From assembly GCA_919902495.1 (NCBI GenBank), contig CAKKRC010000010.1, positions 1 to 55,251 of the forward strand: a stretch of 55,251 nucleotides of DNA, written 5' to 3'. Positions 3-31,365 of the stretch are shown one piece after another. The position numbers were made by a program, and so were the translations under genes. This stretch comes from Nitrospiria bacterium (GTDB taxonomy: Bacteria; Nitrospirota; UBA9217). The notes below the pieces were generated by a model, which saw nothing but the letters and a program-made list of their open reading frames with translations, ran no database searches and was not told where the DNA came from. How positions within the stretch are numbered: position 1 is the first letter of the stretch; each line of letters opens with the position of its first letter.

Positions 3-1940
3 GAAAAGGAGATCTCGAAGGACGAGATCCTCGAACTCTACCTCAACAAGATCTACTTCGGGCACGGCGCCTACGGCGTACAGATGGCCGCCAAGACCTA
101 TTTCGGCAAGGACATCGCGAGCGTCAACCAGGCGGAGGCGGCGCTGCTGGCGGGCCTGCCGAAATCGCCCATGGTCTACTCGCCGTACAGCGATATCGAC
201 CTGACGAAGCTGCGGCAGTCCCAGGTCCTCAAACGGATGGTGGATGAGGGCTATCTCAACGAGGCCCAGTCCGCTGCGATCTACAACCAGCCCCTGAACC
301 TGGAAAATCTGAGGTCCCAGGAGGAACTGGCCCCGCATATCGTCGATCATATCCGCAAATACATCCTGAACAAGTACGGCGAGGAGAAGCTCTACCACGG
401 CGGCATCAAGGTCTACCTCTCCATAGACCTCGACCTGCAGCGCGCCGCGGTGGCATCGCTCAAGGAAGGCCTCCGCGCGCTGGACAAGCGGCAGGGGTTC
501 CGCGGCCGCGTCGGCCGCAAGGATGTGAAGCCCGCCGCGGCCCAGCTGGGCACGCTCCGGGTGGTGGTGAAGCCGGGCGAGGTGTTCAACGCCCACGTGC
601 TCGCCGTGGGCGACTACTACCTTACGGTCAAGGGCCGCGGGATGGTTGGATACATCGTGAAGGAAGACATGGCCTGGGCGCTCATCAAGCCCAAGAAGCG
701 CAAGGACGATCCCGATGAGTTCAAGGCCCCGTCCGAGATCATTCAGCCCGGCGACATCGTCAAGGTCCGCTTCAAGGACTATGACAAGAAGAAGCAGACC
801 GCCTCGTTCCTGCTGGACCAGACGCCGCTGGTGGAAGGGGCCGTGGTCGTCCTCGAGCCCTACACCGGCTATGTCCGCGCCATGGTCGGCGGGTATGATT
901 TCGTCGAAGGCGGGTTCAACCACGCGACGGACGCCAAACGCCAGCCCGGTTCCGCCTTCAAACCCTTTATTTACGGGGCTGCGCTCGAAGCGAAGGACGG
1001 TGACCACTACCGGTATACCCCGGCAACGATCGTCTTCGACCTGCCCGTCATCCATGAGCAGACCGAGCAGGACAAGAAGGGATGGAAACCGACGAATTAC
1101 GACGAACGGTTCCTCGGCCCCATGCGCATGCGGACGGCACTGGCCCTGTCGCGGAACGCCGTCACCGTGCGGTTGCTGGAGGACATCGGCCTGTCCCGGG
1201 CCGTGACCTTCGCGCGGAAGGCCGGCATCACGAGCCCCATCAATGAGGACTATACCTCCGCGCTCGGCTCTTCGGTCGTGTCGCCCCTTGAGCTCACCTC
1301 CGCCTACGCGACCTTCGCTTCGCAGGGCATCCGGTCCGAGCCGATCATGATCAAGAGCATCGTCGACGGCAGGGGCGTCGTGCTCGAGGGATATGACCCT
1401 CAGCCCCAGGAGTCCGTGGACAGGATCACGGCCTACCTCGTGACGAGCCTGCTCAAGAGCGTGGTGGATGACGGGACCGGGAGGGGCGCGAAAGGATTGA
1501 ACAAGCCGCTGGCCGGCAAGACGGGGACCACCAACAACTATGTGGACGCCTGGTTCGTGGGGTACAGCCCGAGCATCGTGACCGGCGTCTGGGTGGGCTA
1601 CGACAACGCCAGCGCATCGCTGGGAGACAGGGAAACCGGAGCGCGGTCCGCGCTTCCCATCTGGGTGGGCGTGATGGCCAGGGCCCTGGCGGACAAGCCG
1701 GTCGAGGAATTCCCGGTGCCCGACGAGGTGGTGTTGACGAAGATCGATCCGGAGACGGGATTGCTCGCCCGGGAAGACGCGGCCGACGCCGTTCCCGATG
1801 TGTTCCGCAAGGGCACCGAGCCCACGCAATTTGCCCAGACCAAGGGCGGACCCAAGGCGGGACAGTTCTATATGCTTGACCAGGGCGAGGGCGATTTCAC
1901 GCTTATCAAGAAAAAGAAGGCCGAAGAGGCCGAGGACTGA
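3..1940 (+). CDS. mrcA: Class A penicillin-binding protein 1A (5' truncated)
   Basis: Bifunctional peptidoglycan glycosyltransferase/transpeptidase anchored in the inner membrane. The frame is open to the left edge, so the signal anchor and the start of the glycosyltransferase domain lie outside the window. Seen: the glycosyltransferase signature (ELYLNKIYFGHGAYGVQ) at the edge, an inserted OB-like segment around nt 540-830, then the transpeptidase motifs SAFK (catalytic Ser at nt 951), SRN (nt 1149) and KTGTT (nt 1518). The C-terminus is Lys/Glu-rich. The first ATG in the window (nt 84) lies inside the glycosyltransferase domain and is not the start. The OB-type insert favours PBP1A over PBP1B or 1C. 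It lies upstream of ileS with a repeat-bearing gap between them. Confidence 0.93.
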   Translation, partial: EKEISKDEILELYLNKIYFGHGAYGVQMAAKTYFGKDIASVNQAEAALLAGLPKSPMVYSPYSDIDLTKLRQSQVLKRMVDEGYLNEAQSAAIYNQPLNLENLRSQEELAPHIVDHIRKYILNKYGEEKLYHGGIKVYLSIDLDLQRAAVASLKEGLRALDKRQGFRGRVGRKDVKPAAAQLGTLRVVVKPGEVFNAHVLAVGDYYLTVKGRGMVGYIVKEDMAWALIKPKKRKDDPDEFKAPSEIIQPGDIVKVRFKDYDKKKQTASFLLDQTPLVEGAVVVLEPYTGYVRAMVGGYDFVEGGFNHATDAKRQPGSAFKPFIYGAALEAKDGDHYRYTPATIVFDLPVIHEQTEQDKKGWKPTNYDERFLGPMRMRTALALSRNAVTVRLLEDIGLSRAVTFARKAGITSPINEDYTSALGSSVVSPLELTSAYATFASQGIRSEPIMIKSIVDGRGVVLEGYDPQPQESVDRITAYLVTSLLKSVVDDGTGRGAKGLNKPLAGKTGTTNNYVDAWFVGYSPSIVTGVWVGYDNASASLGDRETGARSALPIWVGVMARALADKPVEEFPVPDEVVLTKIDPETGLLAREDAADAVPDVFRKGTEPTQFAQTKGGPKAGQFYMLDQGEGDFTLIKKKKAEEAED

Positions 1941-2076: not shown

Positions 2077-4863
2077 ATGGATTATAAGACGACCCTCAAT
2101 CTGCCGAAGACCGACTTCCCCATGAAGGCGAACCTGAAGGACCTCGAGCCCCGCACCATCGGCCGGTGGCAGGAGCAGGGGACCTATCGCCTGATCCAGG
2201 AACGGAACAAGGGCAAGCAGAGCTATATCCTCCATGACGGACCGCCCTACGCCAACGGCCATATCCACATCGGCCACGCGCTGAACAAGACCCTGAAGGA
2301 CATCATCGTCAAGTACAAGTCCATGTGCGGGTTCTCCTCGCCCTACATTCCCGGCTGGGACTGCCACGGCCTCCCCATCGAGCACCAGGTGCTCAAGAGC
2401 CTGGGCTCGAAGAAGGATTCGATGTCGCAGGCGGAGATCCGGAAGCTCTGCCGCGACTATGCCGGGAAGTTCATCGACATCCAGCGAGAGGAGTTCAAGC
2501 GGCTGGGCGTGTTCGGCGACTGGGACGATCCCTACCTTACCATGAACTATGCGTACGAGGCGGCCATCGTGCGCGAACTCGGAAAGTTCGTGGGCACCGG
2601 CGGCGTCTACAAAGGCAAAAAACCCGTGTACTGGTGCGGGTCCTGCGAGACGGCCCTGGCCGAGGCTGAGGTGGAATACGGCGACCACGAATCGCCGTCC
2701 ATCTCCGTCAAGTTCGCTTTGCCCGGCGCGGAGAAAGCGCTCCCGTCGCTGACCGGGAAGAACGTCAGCATCGTGATCTGGACCACCACGCCCTGGACGC
2801 TCGTATCCAATTTGGCTGTCGCGCTCCATCCCCAGTTCGACTATGTCGCTTTCGATATCGGGAACAATGAGGTGCTGATCGTTGCCGAGGCGCTGCTTGC
2901 CCAATCGCTCCAGAAGTTCGGGATCACATCGCACACGGTCATCGAAAAGTTCAAGGGGAAGGCGCTGGAAGGGCTCAAGGCACGCCATCCCTTCATCGAC
3001 CGGGAGTCCCTGGTGATCCTCGGCGAGCATGTGACCCTAGAGGCGGGCACTGGCGCCGTGCATACCGCTCCCGGCCACGGCCAGGAAGACTACGAGGCCG
3101 GGCTCAAGTACGGTCTTGACGTCTATGCTCCCGTTGACCATAAAGCGCGGTTCACCAAGGAGGCCGGTGTCTTCGCGGGCGAGCACGTGCACAAGGCGAA
3201 CAAGAACGTCATCAGTCTGCTCAAGGAGAAACACGCGCTCCTTGCGGAGGAAAAACTTTCGCATTCGTATCCCCACTGCTGGCGGTGCAAGCACCCGGTC
3301 ATCTTCCGGGCCACGGAGCAGTGGTTCATCTCCATGAAGACGAACGACCTGCTGAAGAAGGTCGTAGAGAACGCGAACGCCGTGACCTGGGTGCCCGGAT
3401 GGGGCAAGGACCGGTTCCTCTCCATGGTCCAGGACCGTCCCGACTGGTGCATCTCGCGCCAGCGGGCATGGGGCGTTCCCATCGTTGCGTTCACCTGCAA
3501 GGACTGCCACACGCTGCTCCTCGACAAGGAGATCGTCGATCATGTGGCGGACATCGTCGCGAAGGAAGGCGCCGATATCTGGTTCACCAAGTCGCCTGCC
3601 GAACTGATGCCTGCCGGAACATCATGCAAGAAATGCGGCAAGAAGGAATTCGAGAAGGAGATGGACATCCTCGACGTCTGGTTCGACTCGGGTGTCTCCC
3701 AGGCGGCCGTGCTCAAAGAACGCAAGGAACTGTCCTGGCCCGCGGACCTGTACCTCGAAGGGAGCGATCAGCACCGGGGATGGTTCCAGTCGTCGCTCCT
3801 TGCCTCCGTCGGCACCACGGGCAGGTCGCCGTACCGCACAGTGCTGACCCATGGCTTCACGGTGGACGGCTCGGGCAAGAAGATGAGCAAGTCCTCGGGC
3901 AACGTGGTGGCGCCCCAGGAGGTCATCGACAAGTACGGGGCGGAAGTATTGCGGCTCTGGGTCTCGGCCGCCGACTACCGCGACGACATCCGCATCTCGC
4001 CCGAGATCCTGGCGCACCTCGCCGAGGCCTATCGCAGGATCCGGAATACCAGCCGGTACTTTCTGGGCAACCTCTCGGACTTCGATCCGGCGAAGGACAC
4101 CGTTGCCGACGACAAGCTCCTCGAGATCGACCGGTGGGCATTGCATCGGTTGCAGAGGCTGGTGCAGCGGGTGGGCAAGGCCTACGATGATTTCGAGTTC
4201 CACATCGTGTTCCATTCGATCCATAATTTCTGCGCCGTGGACATGAGCGCCTTCTACCTCGACATCCTGAAGGACCGGCTGTACACGGCGAAGGCCGCAT
4301 CGCCGGAGCGGCGGTCAGGCCAGACCGTCATGCACCGGATACTCTCAACGCTGGTGCGGCTCATGGCGCCGGTGCTTTCGTTCACGGCAGACGAGGTCTG
4401 GGCGTATATGCCCGGAGAGAAGAAGCAGTCCAGCGTGTTCCTCTCTGACTTTCCGAAGGCCGAGGACCGGTATATCGATGATAGTCTCGAGGCGCGGTGG
4501 GACAAGCTTCTCGCGGTGCGCGGCGAGGCCGCGAAGGTGCTCGAGGGGCTCAGGAAGGACAAGAAGATCGGCCATTCCCTTGACGCGGGCGTGACGCTCT
4601 ATGCGGAGCCTGGCCTCCATGAGCTCCTGAAACAGTACGAGAAGGACCTTCCCTTCATCTTCATCGTGTCTGCCGCGGAGCTGGCAAAAGAATCCGAGGC
4701 ACCTGCCGACGCCTTCACCAGCGACACGGTCAAAGGCCTGAAGATCACGGCCGGCCAGGCGAAGGGCGGGAAGTGCGGCCGATGCTGGATGTACAGCACG
4801 GCCATCGGAGCGGTGAAGGAACACCCGGAGATCTGCGGAAGATGCGCGGGGAATCTGGCATGA
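2077..4863 (+). CDS. ileS: Isoleucyl-tRNA synthetase
   Basis: Charges tRNA-Ile in the cytoplasm (class I aminoacyl-tRNA synthetase, 928 aa from this start). Seen: the HIGH motif (HIHIGHA, HIGH at residues 64-67), the CP1 editing domain in the middle, and KMSKS at residues 602-606. The anticodon-binding domain follows, then a C-terminal zinc finger with CGRC pairs near residues 900-925. The ATG at 2077 gives the expected N-terminus (MDYKTTLNLPKTDFPMK); an upstream ATG at 2017 would add 20 residues of repeat-derived sequence. Length and motif order match the bacterial type with a C-terminal zinc finger. lspA follows after 40 nt, a common arrangement. Confidence 0.97.
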   Translation: MDYKTTLNLPKTDFPMKANLKDLEPRTIGRWQEQGTYRLIQERNKGKQSYILHDGPPYANGHIHIGHALNKTLKDIIVKYKSMCGFSSPYIPGWDCHGLPIEHQVLKSLGSKKDSMSQAEIRKLCRDYAGKFIDIQREEFKRLGVFGDWDDPYLTMNYAYEAAIVRELGKFVGTGGVYKGKKPVYWCGSCETALAEAEVEYGDHESPSISVKFALPGAEKALPSLTGKNVSIVIWTTTPWTLVSNLAVALHPQFDYVAFDIGNNEVLIVAEALLAQSLQKFGITSHTVIEKFKGKALEGLKARHPFIDRESLVILGEHVTLEAGTGAVHTAPGHGQEDYEAGLKYGLDVYAPVDHKARFTKEAGVFAGEHVHKANKNVISLLKEKHALLAEEKLSHSYPHCWRCKHPVIFRATEQWFISMKTNDLLKKVVENANAVTWVPGWGKDRFLSMVQDRPDWCISRQRAWGVPIVAFTCKDCHTLLLDKEIVDHVADIVAKEGADIWFTKSPAELMPAGTSCKKCGKKEFEKEMDILDVWFDSGVSQAAVLKERKELSWPADLYLEGSDQHRGWFQSSLLASVGTTGRSPYRTVLTHGFTVDGSGKKMSKSSGNVVAPQEVIDKYGAEVLRLWVSAADYRDDIRISPEILAHLAEAYRRIRNTSRYFLGNLSDFDPAKDTVADDKLLEIDRWALHRLQRLVQRVGKAYDDFEFHIVFHSIHNFCAVDMSAFYLDILKDRLYTAKAASPERRSGQTVMHRILSTLVRLMAPVLSFTADEVWAYMPGEKKQSSVFLSDFPKAEDRYIDDSLEARWDKLLAVRGEAAKVLEGLRKDKKIGHSLDAGVTLYAEPGLHELLKQYEKDLPFIFIVSAAELAKESEAPADAFTSDTVKGLKITAGQAKGGKCGRCWMYSTAIGAVKEHPEICGRCAGNLA

Positions 4864-14718: not shown

Positions 14719-15098
14719 GTGCGCCCGGCAGGGCGCACTCACTTGGAGGTGTAAGTCCTCTACGGACCCTGATGACGGGAACCGTTAGCCGAACCGCAAG
14801 GGCTGTCGCCGCGAGGCGAGGTCTGAAGGAAGCGGTACGCAAATCCCCGGCTCGAGGAACACGAAGCGCATACGAGGCAGCCGCGTCTGGGCGAGAAGGC
14901 AAAGACATTCAAAGCCCGATAGTCATTCGGAAGGCGCGGTTGTAGATGCGACGGGTATATGGGGAGAAAGTGGGTGCGCAATACCCGGGGAGGTCTGCAT
15001 GCTTGCCGTAAGGCTATCATCGTCAAGAGACGGTGGGACGAGCGTGCAGAAGTCAGCCGAGGGCATAGTAGTCCCGCGCACGGGATGAAGGCCCGAAC

Positions 15099-16532
15099 AT
15101 GGAAGGTCGGAGGGGTGCCGAAGTCTTGATGAACGAAGGAGACGCACAAAGGAAGGCTGAGATGCCTGAGGACTCCCGGAGGGCAGCGGGCGGAACCCGC
15201 CAGAGTACGGAGAGAGCGCGTCAAACGTCCGCGGCGGCAGAGGAGAACACCCAGCCGGAAGCAACGAAGCTCTTAGAGGAGGTATTGCGCCGCGAGAACC
15301 TGATTGTTGCCCTGCAGCGTGTCAAGTCGAACAAAGGAGCTCCGGGAACGGACGGCATGACCGTCGAAGAACTCCCGGTCCACCTTAGAACGCACTGGCC
15401 GTGCATCCGGAAAGAGTTGCTGGACGGGACGTACATCCCCGCCCCGGTTCGGAGGGTAGAGATACCGAAACCGGACGGGAAGGGAACACGCCCGCTCGGA
15501 ATCCCCACCGTCCTCGACCGGTTCATCGAACAAGCCATTTTGCAGATACTGACTCCAATCTTCGATCCCCACTTCAGCGAGAACAGCTATGGCTTCCGTC
15601 CCGGACGCGGCTGTCAGGATGCGATCAAGGCAGCCCGCAGCCACGTGGAAGCGGGTTATCGCTTTGTAGTGGATATGGATCTGGAGAAATTCTTTGACCG
15701 AGTTAACCACGACGTGCTCATGGCACGGGTGGCCAGACGGGTAAAGGACAAAAGACTTCTCCGACTCATCGGCCGTTATCTCAAGGCCGGGATTATGATC
15801 GAAGGAGTTATCCAGAGCCACGAAGAAGGGACACCCCAGGGAGGGCCGCTCTCGCCGCTCCTATCCAACATCCTGCTGGATGATCTGGACAAAGAGCTGG
15901 AGCGAAGAGGCCGCCGTTTCTGCCGCTATGCCGACGACTGCAACATTTACGTCAAGTCCAAGGCTGCGGGAGAACAGGCGATGCGGTCCATCACCCGGTA
16001 TCTTGCAAAGAAGCTGCGCTTAACGGTGAACAGGGAGAAGAGTGCGGTAGGTCGTCCCTGGGAACGCAAATTCCTGGGATATACCATGACCTATCACCTT
16101 CGGCCAAAGCTCAAAGTGGCCCATAACTCCATCAAGAGAGCCAAGGCCCGAATCCGCGAGATCATCCGAAAGGGCCGGGGACGCTCTCTGCCGCAAGTGA
16201 CCAGAGAACTGACCGTGTTCCTTCGCGGATGGGTGAACTACTTCCGGCTATCCCAAGTAAAGAACGCCTTCGAGGAACTGGACCAATGGAGACGGAGAAA
16301 GCTGCGCCTGATCCTGTGGCGGCAATGGAAAGCGCCGCGCACCAGAGCCAAGAAGCTGATCGAACGAGGGATAGAAAAGACGAGGGCGCGTATCTCGGCC
16401 TACAATGGTCGAGGGCCATGGTGGAATGCCGGAGCGTCACATATAAATGCTGCGGTACCCGCCAACTGGCTGCATAATCAAGGACTCATGAGCCTTCTTG
16501 CAGAGCATCATCGCTTAACAAGCCTTGCATGA
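15099..16532 (+). CDS. ltrA: Group II intron reverse transcriptase/maturase (LtrA family, class C)
   Basis: Intron-encoded protein for splicing and target-primed reverse transcription. Seen: RT domains with TDGMTVEELP, FRPGRGCQDA, DMDLEKFFDRVNHD, EGTPQGGPLSPLL and the catalytic RYADDCNIYV, then the thumb and maturase (domain X) segment with RGWVNYFRL. No HNH endonuclease domain is present, as expected for class C. At 477 aa it appears full length with no frameshift, so the intron may be active. Start uncertain: ATG 15099 or ATG 15129 (both upstream of the conserved region); neither has a strong ribosome site. The stop abuts domain V. Confidence 0.95.
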   Translation: MEGRRGAEVLMNEGDAQRKAEMPEDSRRAAGGTRQSTERARQTSAAAEENTQPEATKLLEEVLRRENLIVALQRVKSNKGAPGTDGMTVEELPVHLRTHWPCIRKELLDGTYIPAPVRRVEIPKPDGKGTRPLGIPTVLDRFIEQAILQILTPIFDPHFSENSYGFRPGRGCQDAIKAARSHVEAGYRFVVDMDLEKFFDRVNHDVLMARVARRVKDKRLLRLIGRYLKAGIMIEGVIQSHEEGTPQGGPLSPLLSNILLDDLDKELERRGRRFCRYADDCNIYVKSKAAGEQAMRSITRYLAKKLRLTVNREKSAVGRPWERKFLGYTMTYHLRPKLKVAHNSIKRAKARIREIIRKGRGRSLPQVTRELTVFLRGWVNYFRLSQVKNAFEELDQWRRRKLRLILWRQWKAPRTRAKKLIERGIEKTRARISAYNGRGPWWNAGASHINAAVPANWLHNQGLMSLLAEHHRLTSLA

Positions 16533-16564
16533 ACCGCCGTATGCCGAACGGCACGTACGGTGGT
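16532..16564 (+). ncRNA. Group II intron domain V hairpin
   Basis: The stem ACCGCCGTA / GTACGGTGGT with a distal stem-loop (TGCCGAACGGCA) forms the ~34-nt catalytic domain V. It lies just after the RT stop codon, followed by GTGAGAGG and the domain VI hairpin. Confidence 0.8.
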
Positions 16565-16669
16565 GTGAGAGGCTGGGGCCGCGAGGCCCCCGCCTACTCG
16601 ATCCCCCTTGCACTCCCCGACCTGCTGGTATATAGTTCTCCGCAGATCACGATCTATCGGACCGATTGC

Positions 16670-16860: not shown

Positions 16861-17043
16861 ATGCTTTCTACTCTTAAAGATGCCGTGATGTCCATCAAAA
16901 CCGTTCAGTCAGGACAGAAGCCGAAAGGGAACGTCTCTGACGGGCTGTTGGGTAAGTATGCGGGTATTGTTCCGGAAGGAAAAACATCCGCGGAGTTCGT
17001 CCGGGAAGAGCGGGCTTCGGCCTACGGCAAAGTGAAAAAATAG
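16861..17043 (+). CDS. Putative antitoxin of a PIN-type toxin-antitoxin pair
   Basis: 60-aa basic protein with a ribosome site (AACGAGGTG) and the stop only three bases before the PIN gene. The N-terminal ~25 residues are Lys-rich. The C-terminal part (GLLGKYAGIVPEGKTSAEFVREERA) resembles the tail with which VapB-like antitoxins wrap PIN toxins. I do not recognise the DNA-binding fold. Assignment rests on size, position and the operator upstream. Codon use is like that of its neighbours. Confidence 0.7.
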   Translation: MLSTLKDAVMSIKTVQSGQKPKGNVSDGLLGKYAGIVPEGKTSAEFVREERASAYGKVKK

Positions 17044-17046
17044 ACA

Positions 17047-17505
17047 ATGGATACTCCAAAAGTCCTCCTGGATACGGATGTCGTGATCAACTGGCTGGTG
17101 CGGGAGGTGGAGACAGTATCCGCGAAAGAGCTCTGGAAGGCGCCCCATGAAATCGTTCGGCGCGCTGAGGCTGGGGCGCTGAGGGCACTTATCTCTCTCA
17201 CGACCCTTTTGGAAATCCGGTTTCTTTTGCGCAGGAAAAAATCTTTCTCGACCCGCCAGATAGAAGATGACCTCAACTCGATCACGTCGGTCATAGACGT
17301 CATCATTCCCGATGAATTAAGTCTGCTCAAGGCCAATACCCTCCAAGCCGATCATCCTCTGGATCCTTTCGATGCGATCCACCTGTCTCTTTGCGTGGGC
17401 CTGGAGCCCGTTACTCTGATATCACGCGATGACGACTTCATTAAGATCGCCAAGAAGCTCGGCACTGCGCTGACGCCCGAAGAGTTCGTAGCCACGTTAA
17501 AATAA
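17047..17505 (+). CDS. PIN-domain ribonuclease toxin (VapC-like)
   Basis: 152-aa PIN domain, predicted Mg2+-dependent RNase. Acidic site residues are visible: Asp in LLDTDVVINWL (residue ~9), Glu in SLTTLLEIRFLL (~58), Asp in PFDAIHLSL (~112) and Asp in SRDDDFIKI (~130). Length and motif order fit VapC. It is translated with the small protein just upstream. It sits between a group II intron with an rluD relic and intact rluD, so it may have arrived as a cassette. VapC toxins typically cleave tRNA or rRNA; the target here is unknown. Confidence 0.88.
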   Translation: MDTPKVLLDTDVVINWLVREVETVSAKELWKAPHEIVRRAEAGALRALISLTTLLEIRFLLRRKKSFSTRQIEDDLNSITSVIDVIIPDELSLLKANTLQADHPLDPFDAIHLSLCVGLEPVTLISRDDDFIKIAKKLGTALTPEEFVATLK

Positions 17506-17652
17506 AAAAGAGCGTAACTTCGGGGTCATTCGTTCTCATGGCGCGTTCTGGCGAGCATCAAGACATCCTCGTCGATCCCGACAGTCCCGATGTCCCGACT
17601 TGAGAAGGAAAGCGCCGCACTTAATAGCCGGGCGTTGAGTTTTTTATCGCTT

Positions 17653-18615
17653 ATGCCTCAGAAAACCCTCATCGTCACCGACAGCCACACCGGCAAGCGC
17701 CTCGATATGTTCATCCAGCATCACGAGGCGTACAGCTCGCGGAACCGCATCCAGACTCTCATCAAAGATGGTCTCGCTCTGGTCAACGGGAAACCCGAAA
17801 AGCCCAGCTACAAGGTCAGGGCTGGCGACACCGTGACGCTCGAACTTGCCGAACGGAAGATCCGCGAGGTCCTGCCCGAAAACATCCCGCTCCATATCGT
17901 GTTCGAGGACGATCACATGGTGGTGCTGAACAAGCCGCCGGGGCTCGTGGTCCATCCCGCTCCCGGGAATTATACCGGCACGCTCGTGAACGCGCTGCTC
18001 TATCACTACGGAAGCCTTCCTTCTTCGGGGAAGGGGGCCGCTGAAGGAGCGGGGAGCGAACGGGAGCGGGCGGGCATCGTTCACCGCCTCGACAAGGACA
18101 CCTCGGGAGTCATGGTCGTGGCGCGGACGGAGCAGGCGCTCAAGGCGCTGACCAAACAGTTCAAGGACCGTGTCGTGCAGAAGAAGTATATCGCGCTGGT
18201 CAGCGGCGTTATCAAGAAGGGTTCGGGTACCATCGATGCGGCCATCGGCAGGCATGTGAAGGAACGGAAAAAGATCAGCGTCCACACAGCCTCTCCGCGC
18301 GAGGCCGTCTCTCTCTTCAAGGTCAAGGAACGCTTCAAAAAAGCGACCCTCGTCGAGGTGGAGATCAAGACCGGACGCACGCACCAGATCCGCGTGCACA
18401 TGGCGCACCTGGGATATCCCGTCCTGGGCGACCGGGTCTATGGCGGCGCGAAGGTTGCCAAGATTGGCAGTATGGAGATACCCCGTCAGATGCTTCACGC
18501 AGAATCGCTTTCCCTGCTCCATCCCGTGACCGGAACATCGCTCACCTTCATCGCCCCGCCCCCGCAGGACATGTCTCAGGTGATTGAACAGCTGAGGCAG
18601 GCATCGGGGCCTTGA
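17653..18615 (+). CDS. rluD: Ribosomal large subunit pseudouridine synthase (RluD family)
   Basis: 320-aa enzyme converting uridines in 23S rRNA (helix 69 in E. coli RluD) to pseudouridine. An N-terminal S4 domain (residues ~8-65) is followed by the catalytic domain with HRLDKDTSGVMVVA, whose Asp is the nucleophile, and the C-terminal RTHQIRVHMAHLGYPVLGD. The start at 17653 (MPQKTLIV) is chosen because the 5' fragment at 11227 begins at the same codon; an extension to 17590 is spacer-derived. There is no clear ribosome site. This is the only complete copy, although pieces of rluD occur at 11.2, 16.7 and 31.2 kb. Confidence 0.95.
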   Translation: MPQKTLIVTDSHTGKRLDMFIQHHEAYSSRNRIQTLIKDGLALVNGKPEKPSYKVRAGDTVTLELAERKIREVLPENIPLHIVFEDDHMVVLNKPPGLVVHPAPGNYTGTLVNALLYHYGSLPSSGKGAAEGAGSERERAGIVHRLDKDTSGVMVVARTEQALKALTKQFKDRVVQKKYIALVSGVIKKGSGTIDAAIGRHVKERKKISVHTASPREAVSLFKVKERFKKATLVEVEIKTGRTHQIRVHMAHLGYPVLGDRVYGGAKVAKIGSMEIPRQMLHAESLSLLHPVTGTSLTFIAPPPQDMSQVIEQLRQASGP

Positions 18616-23647: not shown

Positions 23648-25597
23648 ATGAGAATGAAGATATGGTTGGTGGTATTGATCTCGCTTGCGACGTTATCGCT
23701 GGTAATCGTTTCCTGCGGCGGAGGCGGAGGGGGAGGAGGCGGGAGCACCGGAGGAGAGACGCTGGTGACCCTCTCGTCGGTCACCGCTCTCTATCCGAAC
23801 AACGGTGTGAACTGGAACGACTACGTCAAGGGTGGGACGATCACGACAGCCATGGATACGCTCTGTACTGCTGCGACGGACACGGCCTGCCTCCATGGCG
23901 GAGAGGTCAAAGTCGTGACCGTGACGGGCAAGACGTCCTGTTCCGGCCTGACGGCATCCGATGCGCTCGGAGCCTTCGACTGGACCTGCGACGCGAGCAC
24001 GGGGACGGTGCGCATGATCTCCACAGGGCTGAAGGATGGGAAGTTCCTCTCTGATTTGATCGACTTCACTACGCCGGCGTGGAAGGCGAACTCGGTGACG
24101 GTGAACGATAATGGAACGCTCTATTCGACCCAAACTTCCACCATGTGGTGGACGAATCCGGTTACGACCGCGATCAGCGGCGGGTCACTTGCGGCCGCAG
24201 GTACTGTTTATGCGGTAACAACCAGCATGACAGGGACCTATACGATCGACGCGTCGAAGGTCGCTTTGGTAAGCAGGCCGGGCGTCACAATACAGGGTGC
24301 AGCGGCTGCCGGTGAAACCATTATCTCCGCTTCAAATGTTAACTTCATCTGGCTGGAAGGCACGATCAACGCGATTGGTAATAACCTTGGGGTGTATCTT
24401 GATACTGTCAAGTATTCGTCTCTGAGAAACGTAAAAGCCGATAATGCCGATACAGGTACCTATTTAGCAGGCGTCGTGCTTAATGCGTCATCCAACAATA
24501 CTCTCAAGAATATATCCGGTGTCAATAACGGTCAGTACGCTATCGAACTGGTGGGGGCAAATGGAAACATGCTGGCACACATAACCGCTGCGAACAATGG
24601 CAGCCGAGGGGTTGCACTTGCTGCTTCGAGAAACAATATTGTTAAGGGTGTCAGAACGTCAAATAATGGCGGGGCAGGAATCTATCTTGTCAACAACTGC
24701 TACGATAATGTTTTTCTGGATATAGTTGCTACAAGCAGTTTTAACGGCATAGACATCGCGGATGGTGGATCAAGCAATAATGTGCTTTCCGGCATCGCCG
24801 TCGCTCTCAATGCGAATGATGGTATCGACCTGCGGTCATCAGATAATCTGCTGATGAATATAATGTCGATACGGGAAGGCAGCAATGGATTGGTTCTGAT
24901 GAGTGGTGCAAGGAATACCGTAGCGAACATCGCTTCTGCTGACGGAAGTTGGGATATTTATTCCTTGAATTCTTCTACCAATACCTTTACCGGGATAGTC
25001 AAAGTAGGATCTTCAGGTTGCGTTGTAAATGGCGGAGTAGATCCCGGTATCACAAACGGCACGTGCGCAATGAGCGGTTCATCAGATGCCGCTTTGACAA
25101 CCGGGGTAACGCTGACCGGATCTGTTCTGTCTAAAGTAACATCAACCGATGTGCTGAATGCGAGCAACGCGAGTGGCACGGAATCATATGCAAATATCAC
25201 TGATTGGACCACATTTGCCAACGATTTACGTGCATGGGGTAATGATGGCATCGCATTCCCGGACTATAGCAATACTGGCCGGTGCGTAGGAACGTGCCGC
25301 ATCTGGGATTGGAGCCTTCGTTCAACCGACACAGTCGTACGCGATGTTCTAAGTAAGCCTACGGGTAATGACACGATAACGCATACCTGGTCCGATGCCT
25401 CGACGACCACGTTTCTTCGCAATGCTGTCGAGCTCTCGGGCAACGGTAACGGTCTATGCGAGTCCGGCGAGACCTGCCTCTACACACCCAATATCGGTGC
25501 GTACCAGGGCCACGGAAACCTGGTATCCGCCGGAACGTTCACGGACGGGACGATCACCGGTGTGACGCTTTTGAAGTATGAGACTAACGGTCGATAG
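23648..25597 (+). CDS. Poly-Gly lipoprotein with parallel beta-helix (paralogue of 8644)
   Basis: 649 aa. ATG 23648 follows AAAAGGAGG. Signal peptide with IVSC lipobox, then nine Gly. The N-terminal module (VTALYPNNGVNWNDYVKG...) and the C-terminal module (THTWSDASTTTFLRNAVELSG...YQGHGNLVSAGTF) are near-copies of those in the 808-aa protein at 8644. The central PbH1 repeats (NGSRGVALAASRNNIVKGV...) are shorter, fewer and only loosely similar. Four to six Cys in the terminal modules are conserved. It overlaps nothing, but the next gene starts 20 bases after its stop, so the two are probably one operon. Function unknown; surface carbohydrate binding is a guess from the fold. Confidence 0.9.
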   Translation: MRMKIWLVVLISLATLSLVIVSCGGGGGGGGGSTGGETLVTLSSVTALYPNNGVNWNDYVKGGTITTAMDTLCTAATDTACLHGGEVKVVTVTGKTSCSGLTASDALGAFDWTCDASTGTVRMISTGLKDGKFLSDLIDFTTPAWKANSVTVNDNGTLYSTQTSTMWWTNPVTTAISGGSLAAAGTVYAVTTSMTGTYTIDASKVALVSRPGVTIQGAAAAGETIISASNVNFIWLEGTINAIGNNLGVYLDTVKYSSLRNVKADNADTGTYLAGVVLNASSNNTLKNISGVNNGQYAIELVGANGNMLAHITAANNGSRGVALAASRNNIVKGVRTSNNGGAGIYLVNNCYDNVFLDIVATSSFNGIDIADGGSSNNVLSGIAVALNANDGIDLRSSDNLLMNIMSIREGSNGLVLMSGARNTVANIASADGSWDIYSLNSSTNTFTGIVKVGSSGCVVNGGVDPGITNGTCAMSGSSDAALTTGVTLTGSVLSKVTSTDVLNASNASGTESYANITDWTTFANDLRAWGNDGIAFPDYSNTGRCVGTCRIWDWSLRSTDTVVRDVLSKPTGNDTITHTWSDASTTTFLRNAVELSGNGNGLCESGETCLYTPNIGAYQGHGNLVSAGTFTDGTITGVTLLKYETNGR

Positions 25598-25616
25598 AAA
25601 TATCATAGGAGGGATT

Positions 25617-26789
25617 ATGAGAACGAAAGTATTGTTGGTGTGCTTTGTCGTGGTTGTGATGGTAACCGTGTTATCTGCCTGCAGCGGCGGAGGTGGGGGT
25701 GGCGGCGCAGCGGTGGAACGGACAACGGTCAGCATTCCCAAGACCGGTCAGACCACGAGCTACGACGCCAACACGGTAAAGGCAGACGACGGGGCATTGC
25801 AGAAGGGCATCGCCTGGCCATCCCCACGTTTCACGGACAATGGCGACAGCACGATCACGGACAATCTGACGGGGCTCATGTGGCTGAAGGACGCCAATGT
25901 CATTCAATCGCATGATGCAGCCACCCCGGGGAGCGAACTTGACAACGACGGTACCGTTGGAGACGGCATGGTTTTCTGGCAGACTGCTCTCGATATTATT
26001 GAGGTGGCAAACGCGAGTGGAGGGCACTACAGTGACTGGCGTCTGCCGAACAGGAACGAGATGCGAAGCCTTATCCATTACGATCAGACCGACTCGTCCA
26101 CGTGGCTGAGCGGGCAGGGCTTCCAGAACGTCCCATCCGGTTTCTACTGGACATCGTCATCCTATTCCGCTTCCCTGGCATTCGTTGTATACATGATCGA
26201 TGGTCGTCTCGACACCTTTGGCAAGGCGGGAGAATATTATGTTTGGCCGGTACGGGGCGATGGCGGCAGCGCCGTTGGCGCGCTTCCCAGGACGGGCCAG
26301 CCGGTGAGCCATGACACGAATACGATACAGCGCGACGACGGCGCTTTGCGGAAAGGCGTCGCCTGGAAGACACAGCGGTTCATTGTATCGAGCAGCGGCA
26401 CCGGAACGGTGGTGACTGACAGCCTCACGGGGCTTGTCTGGCCGCAGGAGTGGGCAGCGGGCGATGGAAAGGTTCCGTGGCAGACAGCCCTTGACACCGT
26501 GGTAACGCTGAACACCATGACCTATCTTGGCCATTCCGACTGGCGGCTGCCGAATGTGAACGAGCTTGCCACGTTGACCAATACCGCAAATAGTAATCCA
26601 CGGACCTGGCTGATCGAACCTGCTCAGGGATTCATGAACATTCCTGTATCAGTGCCGGTGTATTGGACCTCTACGACAAACAAGTCAAGTCCGAGCCAGG
26701 CGAACGTGGTTGATATGTCGTCAGGATGGGCAGGGGGGGATTTAAAGAGCAACTTAAATTTAGTCATCACTGTTCGTGGAGGAAACTAA
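25617..26789 (+). CDS. Poly-Gly lipoprotein with two DUF1566 (Lcl-type) domains
   Basis: 390 aa. Start 25617 after a GGAGGG ribosome site. Lipobox LSACS, then GGGGGGG. Two tandem DUF1566 units, each with 'TDNLTGLMW', a 'WQTALD' helix, 'SDWRLPN.NE' and 'YWTSS', span residues ~65-215 and ~220-390. DUF1566 adopts a C-type-lectin-like fold and is found in some DGR target proteins (family knowledge). It is related to, but clearly diverged from, the two DUF1566 genes at 28561 and 29697 and shows no matching variable segment at DNA level. The first unit ends YYVWPVRGD, similar to the VWPVRSG end of the DGR-like pair. Confidence 0.88.
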   Translation: MRTKVLLVCFVVVVMVTVLSACSGGGGGGGAAVERTTVSIPKTGQTTSYDANTVKADDGALQKGIAWPSPRFTDNGDSTITDNLTGLMWLKDANVIQSHDAATPGSELDNDGTVGDGMVFWQTALDIIEVANASGGHYSDWRLPNRNEMRSLIHYDQTDSSTWLSGQGFQNVPSGFYWTSSSYSASLAFVVYMIDGRLDTFGKAGEYYVWPVRGDGGSAVGALPRTGQPVSHDTNTIQRDDGALRKGVAWKTQRFIVSSSGTGTVVTDSLTGLVWPQEWAAGDGKVPWQTALDTVVTLNTMTYLGHSDWRLPNVNELATLTNTANSNPRTWLIEPAQGFMNIPVSVPVYWTSTTNKSSPSQANVVDMSSGWAGGDLKSNLNLVITVRGGN

Positions 26790-28560: not shown

Positions 28561-29148
28561 ATGAAGAAATTGCTTTGGTTCAGTTTCGGCATTGTTATGG
28601 TAATAACCCTGGCCGCCTGCGGAGGCGGCGGAGGCGGAGCACCAGGGCCGACGCCCCAGCAAACATCGGTCAATCTCCCCAAAACCGGCCAGCTCACATC
28701 CTACGGCACGGGGTCGATTGACGACGGCGCATTGCAAAGAGGCGTTGCCTGGCCGAGCCCGAGGTTTACGGCAGGAACAGGCGCCGAGGTTGACTGCGTA
28801 ACGGACAACCTCACCGGGCTCATGTGGGTAAAGGCGCCTGATGCCACTACAAGCTCATGGCAGGCGGTGCTGGACTATGCTGATGGTTTACCGCTCTGCG
28901 GCCATACCGACTGGCGGCTGCCGAACAGAAAAGAGCTCCGAAGCCTTGCTAATTACGGTGAGGCAAACAGTGCCACCTGGCTGAATGCCCAGGGTTTCAG
29001 CAATGTGCAGGCCGGTTTCTACTGGTCGTCTACTACGTACGCGGGTGTTACGGCGGGCGCGTGGGGCGTCAATATGGTCGACGGCCTCGTGTTCGCAAAC
29101 GTTAAGACTAACGTCGGCTACGTGTGGCCTGTGCGCTCCGGACAGTAG
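28561..29148 (+). CDS. Poly-Gly DUF1566 lipoprotein, putative DGR variable protein 1
   Basis: 195 aa. ATG 28561 after AAAGGAGGAAG; an upstream in-frame ORF extension is leader. Lipobox LAACG, then six Gly. One DUF1566 domain: 'VTDNLTGLMWVKAPDAT', 'LPLCGHTDWRLPNRKE', 'QAGFYWSSTTY', ending VWPVRSGQ. Residues ~163-187 form a segment that differs sharply from the otherwise similar protein at 29697, only at codon positions 1 and 2. Surface-displayed DUF1566/CLec lipoproteins are known DGR targets (for example in Legionella). An avd-like relic follows 40 bases downstream. The ligand is unknown. Confidence 0.9.
   Translation: MKKLLWFSFGIVMVITLAACGGGGGGAPGPTPQQTSVNLPKTGQLTSYGTGSIDDGALQRGVAWPSPRFTAGTGAEVDCVTDNLTGLMWVKAPDATTSSWQAVLDYADGLPLCGHTDWRLPNRKELRSLANYGEANSATWLNAQGFSNVQAGFYWSSTTYAGVTAGAWGVNMVDGLVFANVKTNVGYVWPVRSGQ
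29041..29120 (+). other. Putative DGR variable region VR1
   Basis: Against 30141-30220 (constant offset 1100, no indels), 19 of 80 bases differ: ten at codon position 1, nine at position 2, none at position 3. Fourteen sites have A in one copy and the other five are compatible with A in a lost template. The next 30 bases are identical in both copies, as an initiation-of-mutagenic-homing site would be. Confidence 0.8.
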
Positions 29149-29188
29149 GTCATTGGGTCATTCGGTTATTTGGGGGTTTTGACTTGCC

Positions 29189-29526
29189 ATGGCGCAATAT
29201 GAGCATTTGCCTATCTATAAAAAGGCGATGGACCTGGCTATATACATCGAAAACATCGTCAGGGGGTTTTTCGAGGTACCACAAGTATACCCTCGGCACG
29301 GACTTGAGGAACCTGTCCCGTGAGGTTGTGCGGCTGATCATCCGGGCGAATTCCGAGTGGGCAGGCGCGCTACACTTACGCTGCTCAGGGACACTGTCGA
29401 GGAACTCAAGGTTTGCATGAGAATCTGCAAGGAAGTAAAGGCGTTTAAGAACTTCAATTCTTTTGTCCATGGAGTTGACGAAGCTGTTTCCCTGAGCAGA
29501 CAGAGCGAGGGCTGGGTAAAGAGCAT
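29189..29526 (+). pseudogene. avd: avd-like DGR accessory gene, broken by two frameshifts
   Basis: Reads MAQYEHLPIYKKAMDLAIYI in one frame. It then shifts at a T5 run (29268-29272, one T too many) to FSRYHKYTLGTDLRNLSREV, and shifts again near 29357 to RRATLTLLRDTVEELKVCM...VKAFKNFNSFVHGVDEAVS...EGWVKS. Conceptually joined it is a ~112-residue four-helix-bundle protein of the bAvd type, which in DGRs binds the RT and guides cDNA synthesis. The similar 23S-rRNA IVP four-helix family is the alternative, but the MAQYEHLPIYK start and the position between two DUF1566 genes favour Avd. Either a dead gene or two sequencing errors. Confidence 0.8.
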
Positions 29527-29537
29527 CCCTTCAGGTT

Positions 29538-29593
29538 CCCCTCCCCGGTCTATACACTCTCCCCGTGATGGGAGAGGGCTGGGGTGAGGGGAA
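29538..29593. repeat. MITE-like palindrome
   Basis: CCCCTCCCC...CACTCTCCCC, GTGATGG, GGAGAGGGCTGGGGTGAGGGG. Same family as the element inside the BTAD regulator. It abuts the 3' end of the avd relic. The gap from here to 29696 holds no template repeat and no other gene. Confidence 0.7.
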
Positions 29594-29696
29594 AAAAGAT
29601 ACCCGTCGTCATTATTAAAGAGACGGACCGATACCTCGGCAGGATTAAAGAACGCCTGCCGCTCATGAAAATTATAACAACAAAGGAGGAAGCAAA

Positions 29697-30248
29697 ATGT
29701 TGAAGAAATTTATCCTGTGCACTGTTGTTGCAATGGCATTTGCGGCGGCTCCGGTTTATGCGGCCCCGGCTGATGTGCCCAGGACCGGCCAGCTCATATC
29801 CTACGGCACGGGGACGATTGACGACGGGGGCTTGCAGAGAGGCGTTGCCTGGCCGGATCCGAGGTTTACGGCCGGGACAGCCGCCGAGGTTGACTGCGTA
29901 ACCGACAACCTCACCGGGCTCATGTGGGTAAAGACGCCTGATGCCACTACAAGAACATGGCAGGCGGCGCTGGACTATGCTGATGGTTTACCGCTCTGCG
30001 GCCATACCGACTGGCGGTTACCGAACGTTAATGAGCTGGAGAGTCTTGTAAACGCGGAATCGGGCAACCTCGCCATCTGGCTGAATGCCCAGGGTTTCAG
30101 CAATGCGCAGGCCGGCTACTACTGGTCGTCTACTACGTACGCGGGTAATACGTCGGGCGCGTGGGACGTCGGTATGAACGACGGCTACGTGAGCGCAAGC
30201 AATAAGACTGGCTTCTGCTACGTGTGGCCTGTGCGCTCCGGACAGTAG
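29697..30248 (+). CDS. Secreted DUF1566 protein, putative DGR variable protein 2
   Basis: 183 aa. ATG 29697 follows AAAGGAGGA. It has a type I signal peptide (MLKKFILCTVVAMAFAAAPVYA), not a lipobox, so it is probably released or periplasmic. The single DUF1566 domain is ~80% identical to that at 28561 outside the variable segment, including the stretch VDCVTDNLTGLMWVK and the end YVWPVRSGQ. Residues ~149-173 contain the variable segment. The two genes also share about 25 bases beyond the stop (GGTCATTCGGTTATTTGGGG), so they arose by duplication of a unit including 3' flank, with diversification afterwards or by separate retrohoming. Confidence 0.9.
   Translation: MLKKFILCTVVAMAFAAAPVYAAPADVPRTGQLISYGTGTIDDGGLQRGVAWPDPRFTAGTAAEVDCVTDNLTGLMWVKTPDATTRTWQAALDYADGLPLCGHTDWRLPNVNELESLVNAESGNLAIWLNAQGFSNAQAGYYWSSTTYAGNTSGAWDVGMNDGYVSASNKTGFCYVWPVRSGQ
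30141..30220 (+). other. Putative DGR variable region VR2
   Basis: Counterpart of VR1. Variable codons here (AAT, GGT, AAC, TAC, AGC, AGC, AAT, GGC, TTC, TGC) nearly all end in C or T, as expected if the template codons were AAC/AAT. More A is retained here than in VR1. Confidence 0.8.
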
Positions 30249-30317
30249 GTCCTTTGGTCATTCGGTTATTTGGGGCTCCGGACTCGGACTTGCATGAGAG
30301 TTACCGCCGGCAGATGC

Positions 30318-31132: not shown

Positions 31133-31239
31133 CCGCGGACGCGGCCTGACCCAGCGTTATCTTGTCCAGACATGTCGGGATGCTGGAGGGCTCCATAGGA
31201 CAACGCTTGGGGCGCGTCACTCCACAGCTCGCCATAGAC

Positions 31240-31365
31240 AGGCAGATGCTTCACGCCGAATCGCTTTCCCTGCTCCATCCGGTGACCGGAACATCGCTCA
31301 CCTTCATCGCCCCGCCCCCGCCGGACATGCAGGAGTCCATTGATCGCTTGCGAAGCGGATCGTGA
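31240..31365 (+). pseudogene. 3' fragment of rluD
   Basis: Encodes RQMLHAESLSLLHPVTGTSL..., nearly identical to the last ~40 residues of intact rluD (DNA identity starts at CAGATGCTTCACGC). The end is diverged (DMQESIDRLRSGS) and carries its own stop at 31363. There is no catalytic domain upstream. The rest of the gap to 31679 holds a promoter at 31608 and nothing else I recognise. Confidence 0.85.

Follow-up and report, generated by a model that had tools for sequence, protein, structure and literature searches.

A probable recently inactivated diversity-generating retroelement locus with two frozen target variants in a Nitrospiria bacterium

The DNA analysed here (the window, meaning the whole stretch of 55,251 nt) belongs to a draft assembly of a Nitrospiria bacterium, which consists of 110 contigs and is 97% complete. 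Two genes for DUF1566/Lcl_C proteins enclose a short interval that holds the remains of an accessory gene and of a reverse transcriptase (RT) gene (Table 1). Both proteins carry N-terminal signals that predict export. DUF1566 has been reported as the commonest Pfam domain among the targets of diversity-generating retroelements (DGRs) (PMC6642488). The preliminary description had compared the pair with CLec-fold targets of known DGRs, and an AF2 model of target 2, with pLDDT >90 across most of the domain, predicts such a fold; its best match is the C-terminal domain of Legionella Lcl (E 1.1e-6), followed by C-type lectins. By analogy with the known CLec targets of DGRs, the variable residues would form a ligand-binding face and the proteins would bind a ligand. 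Target 2 gave no match in a phage search (tblastn) and no relative in a protein scan of genome contigs. A third DUF1566 lipoprotein gene, with a double domain, lies upstream of the pair (25578-26789) and has no close relative of the variable region (VR).

Table 1. Features of the locus in the window and of the intact cassette contig of nzgw271
Feature	Position	Strand	Basis or remark
Target gene 1: DUF1566/Lcl_C protein, predicted to be exported (lipoprotein-like signal)	28561..29148	+	PF07603, 104.8 bits; G004 orthologue
VR1, ending in an IMH-like stretch (...GTGTGGCCTGTGCGCTCCGGACAGTAG)	29017..29151	+	20 differences from VR2 (10/10/0); 19/20 at A of the nzgw271 template
avd pseudogene (bAvd-type DGR accessory gene)	29189..29527	+	58% identity over 113 aa to nzgw271 avd
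Deletion junction, 72 bp	29528..29599	.	site of ~2 kb holding TR and RT in relatives
Remnant of the RT-MutS_I (MSL) protein, last ~28 codons	29590..29676	+	82% identity over 28 aa
Target gene 2: DUF1566/Lcl_C protein, predicted to be exported (Sec-type signal peptide)	29697..30248	+	PF07603, 111.2 bits; CLec-fold model
VR2	30117..30251	+	as for VR1
nzgw271 contig: avd	40-402		
nzgw271 contig: template repeat (TR)	about 632-780		
nzgw271 contig: RT fused to MutS domain I	ORF end 2458		
nzgw271 contig: DUF1566 target with VR	2501-3064		

The two target genes align without gaps at a constant offset of 1100, and the counts of the preliminary description were reproduced: 13 differences in 28741-28920, 3 in 28981-29040, none in 29121-29150, and 19 in 29041-29120, which are distributed 10/9/0 over codon positions 1/2/3 (the notation used throughout) and have an A in one copy at 14 sites. 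The footprint reaches slightly further in the 5´ direction, to a T/A difference at 29018, which gives 20 sites (10/10/0) over the 41 codons of 29017-29151. The third-position deficit is confined to the VR. It is significant when compared with the remaining pair, which differs 10/15/21 (Fisher p = 1e-4), and under a plain 1/3 null (p = 3e-4); upstream of the VR, 40 of 279 sites differ (9/13/18). DGRs are reported to vary at codon positions 1 and 2 (PMC10907252), and the sequence of the two genes supports a DGR reading of their footprint.

The preliminary description had left out the segment 28921-28976, where the pair differs at 25 sites, including 11 third positions. This segment splits the genes into two paralogue types (RKELRSLANYG vs VNELESLVNAE). 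Both types are also present in G004, a genome of a related genus, which indicates that the window genes are old paralogues; the homogeneous VR is therefore no sign of a recent duplication. Upstream of 28920 the two copies resemble each other more closely than expected of paralogues this old, which suggests that gene conversion is probably active at the locus.

Machinery remains lie between the two targets and had been overlooked: an avd pseudogene and the tail of an RT. The closest intact counterpart used for comparison is a 3,666-bp contig of Nitrospirae bacterium nzgw271 (G024 C332, JAHFEP010000255), whose avd matches PF22296 (bAvd) and NF033474. In the window, the avd frame is shifted by a +1 indel near 29259-29268, meets a stop codon at 29321-29323 and is shifted again by a -1 indel near 29357-29362, and the accessory gene is thus present as a pseudogene only; both indels are close to short homopolymer runs and may partly reflect errors in the sequence. 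The DNA is colinear with the nzgw271 cassette over 29156-29527, from just past target 1 through avd, and resumes colinearity over 29600-29684. In nzgw271 the interval between these two stretches spans ~2 kb and holds the template together with almost the entire RT; in the window it is replaced by 72 bp. Inside this junction is a 35-bp palindromic dispersed repeat (29557-29591), the 19-bp core of which (GAGAGGGCTGGGGTGAGGG) occurs in 6 copies genome-wide; the further copies are located on host contigs C40, C41, C45, C56 and C78. A similar palindromic element lies between the template and the RT of the nzgw271 cassette, near contig position 796-823.

The nzgw271 contig starts within the final part of an apparent second target. 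Its RT carries the IGNLTSQ motif, which is expected of DGR RTs and diagnostic for them, and the MutS domain I to which it is fused (MSL, PF01624) has been described as an accessory of DGRs (PMC10053308). One continuous open frame of 684 codons (404-2458) spans both the template repeat and the RT. The order target - avd - TR - RT recurs in relatives, several of which have a further downstream target, and two targets flanking one avd-TR-RT cassette are likewise found among them. Tandem DUF1566 genes in two relatives (G053:C8 1505-2635 and G002:C516 1247-3271) have no cassette gene in the stretch examined and may be further DGR leftovers.

The host's own template was never seen, and the template A states were borrowed from relatives (~75-80% identity at non-A sites); read in this way, the nzgw271 template has A at 19 of the 20 sites that differ (Fisher p = 1.1e-10). 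The templates of five other relatives have A at 17-19 of the 20, with p values across all six ranging from 1.1e-10 to 2.3e-7, and all five have A at 29116, the sole exception in nzgw271. Judged by the relatives' templates, the VR therefore varies at template adenines. TR-VR mismatches cluster at template A in the cassettes of all six relatives, and where relatives have kept a cassette, pairs of targets show VR codon patterns of 10/10/2 and 10/7/0. Between the window and its G004 orthologues, third-position change is present over the same VR stretch (16/11/8 and 16/13/9). The earlier claim of a DGR-type footprint is thus borne out by the template-A match and by the same codon pattern in target pairs with live cassettes, and the footprint has the features that mutagenic retrohoming from a single template with AAY codons would leave. 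The VR 3´ ends read GGACAGT in the window and most relatives, and the relatives' templates read GGAGAGT or GGAGAAT, the host template being absent from this comparison. The Bordetella phage BPP-1 is known for a hairpin 3´ of its VR; such a hairpin was sought downstream of VR1 and was not found.

Strong diversifying selection would likewise change codon positions 1 and 2 only, and the excess likeness upstream of 28920, where gene conversion probably acts, fits a history with no DGR, in which positive selection favoured binding diversity while gene conversion homogenised the remainder of the pair. We reject this explanation, to which we give almost no credence, because it explains neither why independent templates carry A at the differing sites (p = 1.1e-10) nor why remnants of avd and the RT lie between the genes.

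The VRs also allow the last rewriting to be placed in time. At the non-A positions of the nzgw271 template, VR1 and VR2 differ at 1 of 93 sites, a site at which the five other templates have A; the corresponding value upstream of the VR, 40/279, is significantly higher (p = 8e-5). The VRs have therefore hardly drifted outside the template-A sites, which indicates that the last rewriting was recent. Upstream of the VR, 28-32 of 93 third positions differ between the window and the G004 orthologues, and set against this divergence the last rewriting in this lineage is much younger than its split from G004. At the orthologous locus of G004, avd contains a different +1 indel and is truncated around residue 58, continuing into target 2. 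Since this decay differs from that in the window, the two genera probably lost the cassette function independently. A search for avd in the remaining 12 genomes of the family gave no match.

A template and a DGR RT had been anticipated in this genome or in related ones, and the related genomes alone supplied them, in cassettes with a full RT and with templates that have A at 17-19 of the 20 sites. In the host genome, no third VR-like copy or template repeat was detected, the two VRs being the only matches at that level. The PF00078 profile matched only 15462-16085, which is part of a group II intron maturase; the nzgw271 RT as query retrieved only the group II RT and the tail remnant at 29590-29676; and brt as query retrieved no DGR RT. 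A C-terminal remnant is thus all that the host genome yielded of a DGR-type RT. The RT at 15099-16532 was considered as a DGR RT and rejected, as it is a TIGR04416 group II maturase (416 bits) with a GIIM domain and is flanked by Rfam group II domains. It forms the maturase ORF of a complete-looking group II intron (14805-16602), in which Rfam domains D1-D4 occupy 14805-14979 and 15014-15093 and the catalytic domain occupies 16532-16602. Two other features of the window may be recorded here. A small ORF followed by a PIN-domain-like ORF (16861-17505) resembles, from its translation, a toxin-antitoxin pair. A 45-codon fragment at 31228-31362 is 76% identical to the C-terminus of a pseudouridine-synthase-like gene (17590-18615) and represents a stray partial copy of that gene, ~13 kb away from it.

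The preliminary description had also proposed that one template serves both targets. The footprint fits this proposal and the arrangement is known in relatives; the assembly now has neither template nor RT, so that the proposal holds for the past only. The targets would still be diversified today if a template and a DGR RT acted in trans from an unassembled replicon, a phage or a mobile element, or if an intact cassette persisted in part of the population. A single RT and TR can serve remote targets (PMC4891356), the assembly is incomplete, and the drift of only 1/93 at non-A sites shows that rewriting was recent. We nevertheless consider continued diversification unlikely, as searches of the genome yielded neither a DGR RT nor a third VR-like copy, all 14 family genomes lack an RT match at 1e-20, the viral contigs scanned contain no template-like pattern, and avd is broken. 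Were it correct, seemingly dead loci would still receive new variation.

Alternatively, the cell may still have a complete cassette, which, being rich in repeats, was collapsed during assembly. TR and VR are themselves repeated sequences, the junction contains a dispersed repeat, and even the intact nzgw271 cassette lies on a contig of a mere 3.7 kb. However, the junction is outside TR and VR, no other contig carries the missing RT, avd is broken as well, and the same locus has decayed in G004 with a different breakpoint, which makes an assembly artefact quite improbable.

We interpret 28561-30248 as a recently dead DGR locus with two frozen target variants, with a rough probability of 0.87. 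The locus has the composition of a degenerate DGR, in which targets accompany pseudogenised or deleted cassette genes: avd is frameshifted, the RT is reduced to a tail remnant, and ~2 kb are absent relative to nzgw271. The ancestral order would have been target 1 - avd - TR - RT fused to an MSL domain - target 2. The RT would have copied the template, the adenines in its AAY codons would have been randomised, and the cDNA would then have replaced the 3´ ends of both CLec-fold target genes. Frameshifts in avd would have come next, probably ahead of a ~2 kb deletion at or near the dispersed repeat, in which the repeat may have played a role and through which the template and nearly the whole RT would have been lost. 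Loss of the cassette would have frozen both target variants, presumably with no machinery acting in trans.

The two targets alone thus suffice to recognise a DGR whose template and RT have been lost, and surveys seeded with RTs would miss such loci. The present case is relatively dated: the VRs were recently rewritten, the cassette would have been lost later, and the orthologous locus in a related genus decayed differently. Such loci offer a test of the fate of hypervariable binding proteins after diversification ends.

In the literature searched, the present locus was not found described, and no paper was found on DGRs together with Magnetobacterium or with "MutS-like". The closest known arrangements are those of nzgw271 and Candidatus Magnetobacterium casense MYR-1, which share with the window homologous targets, avd and the RT tail in the order target - avd - (TR - RT) - target. 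Their cassettes, with DUF1566 targets and an RT fused to MutS_I (MSL, PF01624), keep the template and the full RT, whereas avd is frameshifted in the window and the template and RT are gone. The DGR of BPP-1 (mtd/avd/TR/brt) works on the same principle, with adenine-directed retrohoming that rewrites the 3´ end of a gene for a CLec-fold protein; its single annotated VR belongs to a phage gene, and the RT of the relatives is fused to MutS_I. brt aligns with the nzgw271 RT over two stretches only, at 37-39% identity. Inactivated DGRs were described in the DiGReF survey (PMC3521204), degenerate DGR loci in Thiohalocapsa PB-PSB1 (PMC10907252), and Treponema denticola isolates without RT or TR whose target VRs vary at template-A positions (PMC4891356), so that this kind of locus is already known. 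The DiGReF cases keep a TR and a damaged RT, whereas no complete locus was found in the window genome. In Thiohalocapsa PB-PSB1, DGR machinery is missing or pseudogenised as in the window, but a complete locus of each class is kept. Compared with the leftovers in T. denticola, the window retains avd and the RT tail between two targets, and both the host phylum and the target family differ.
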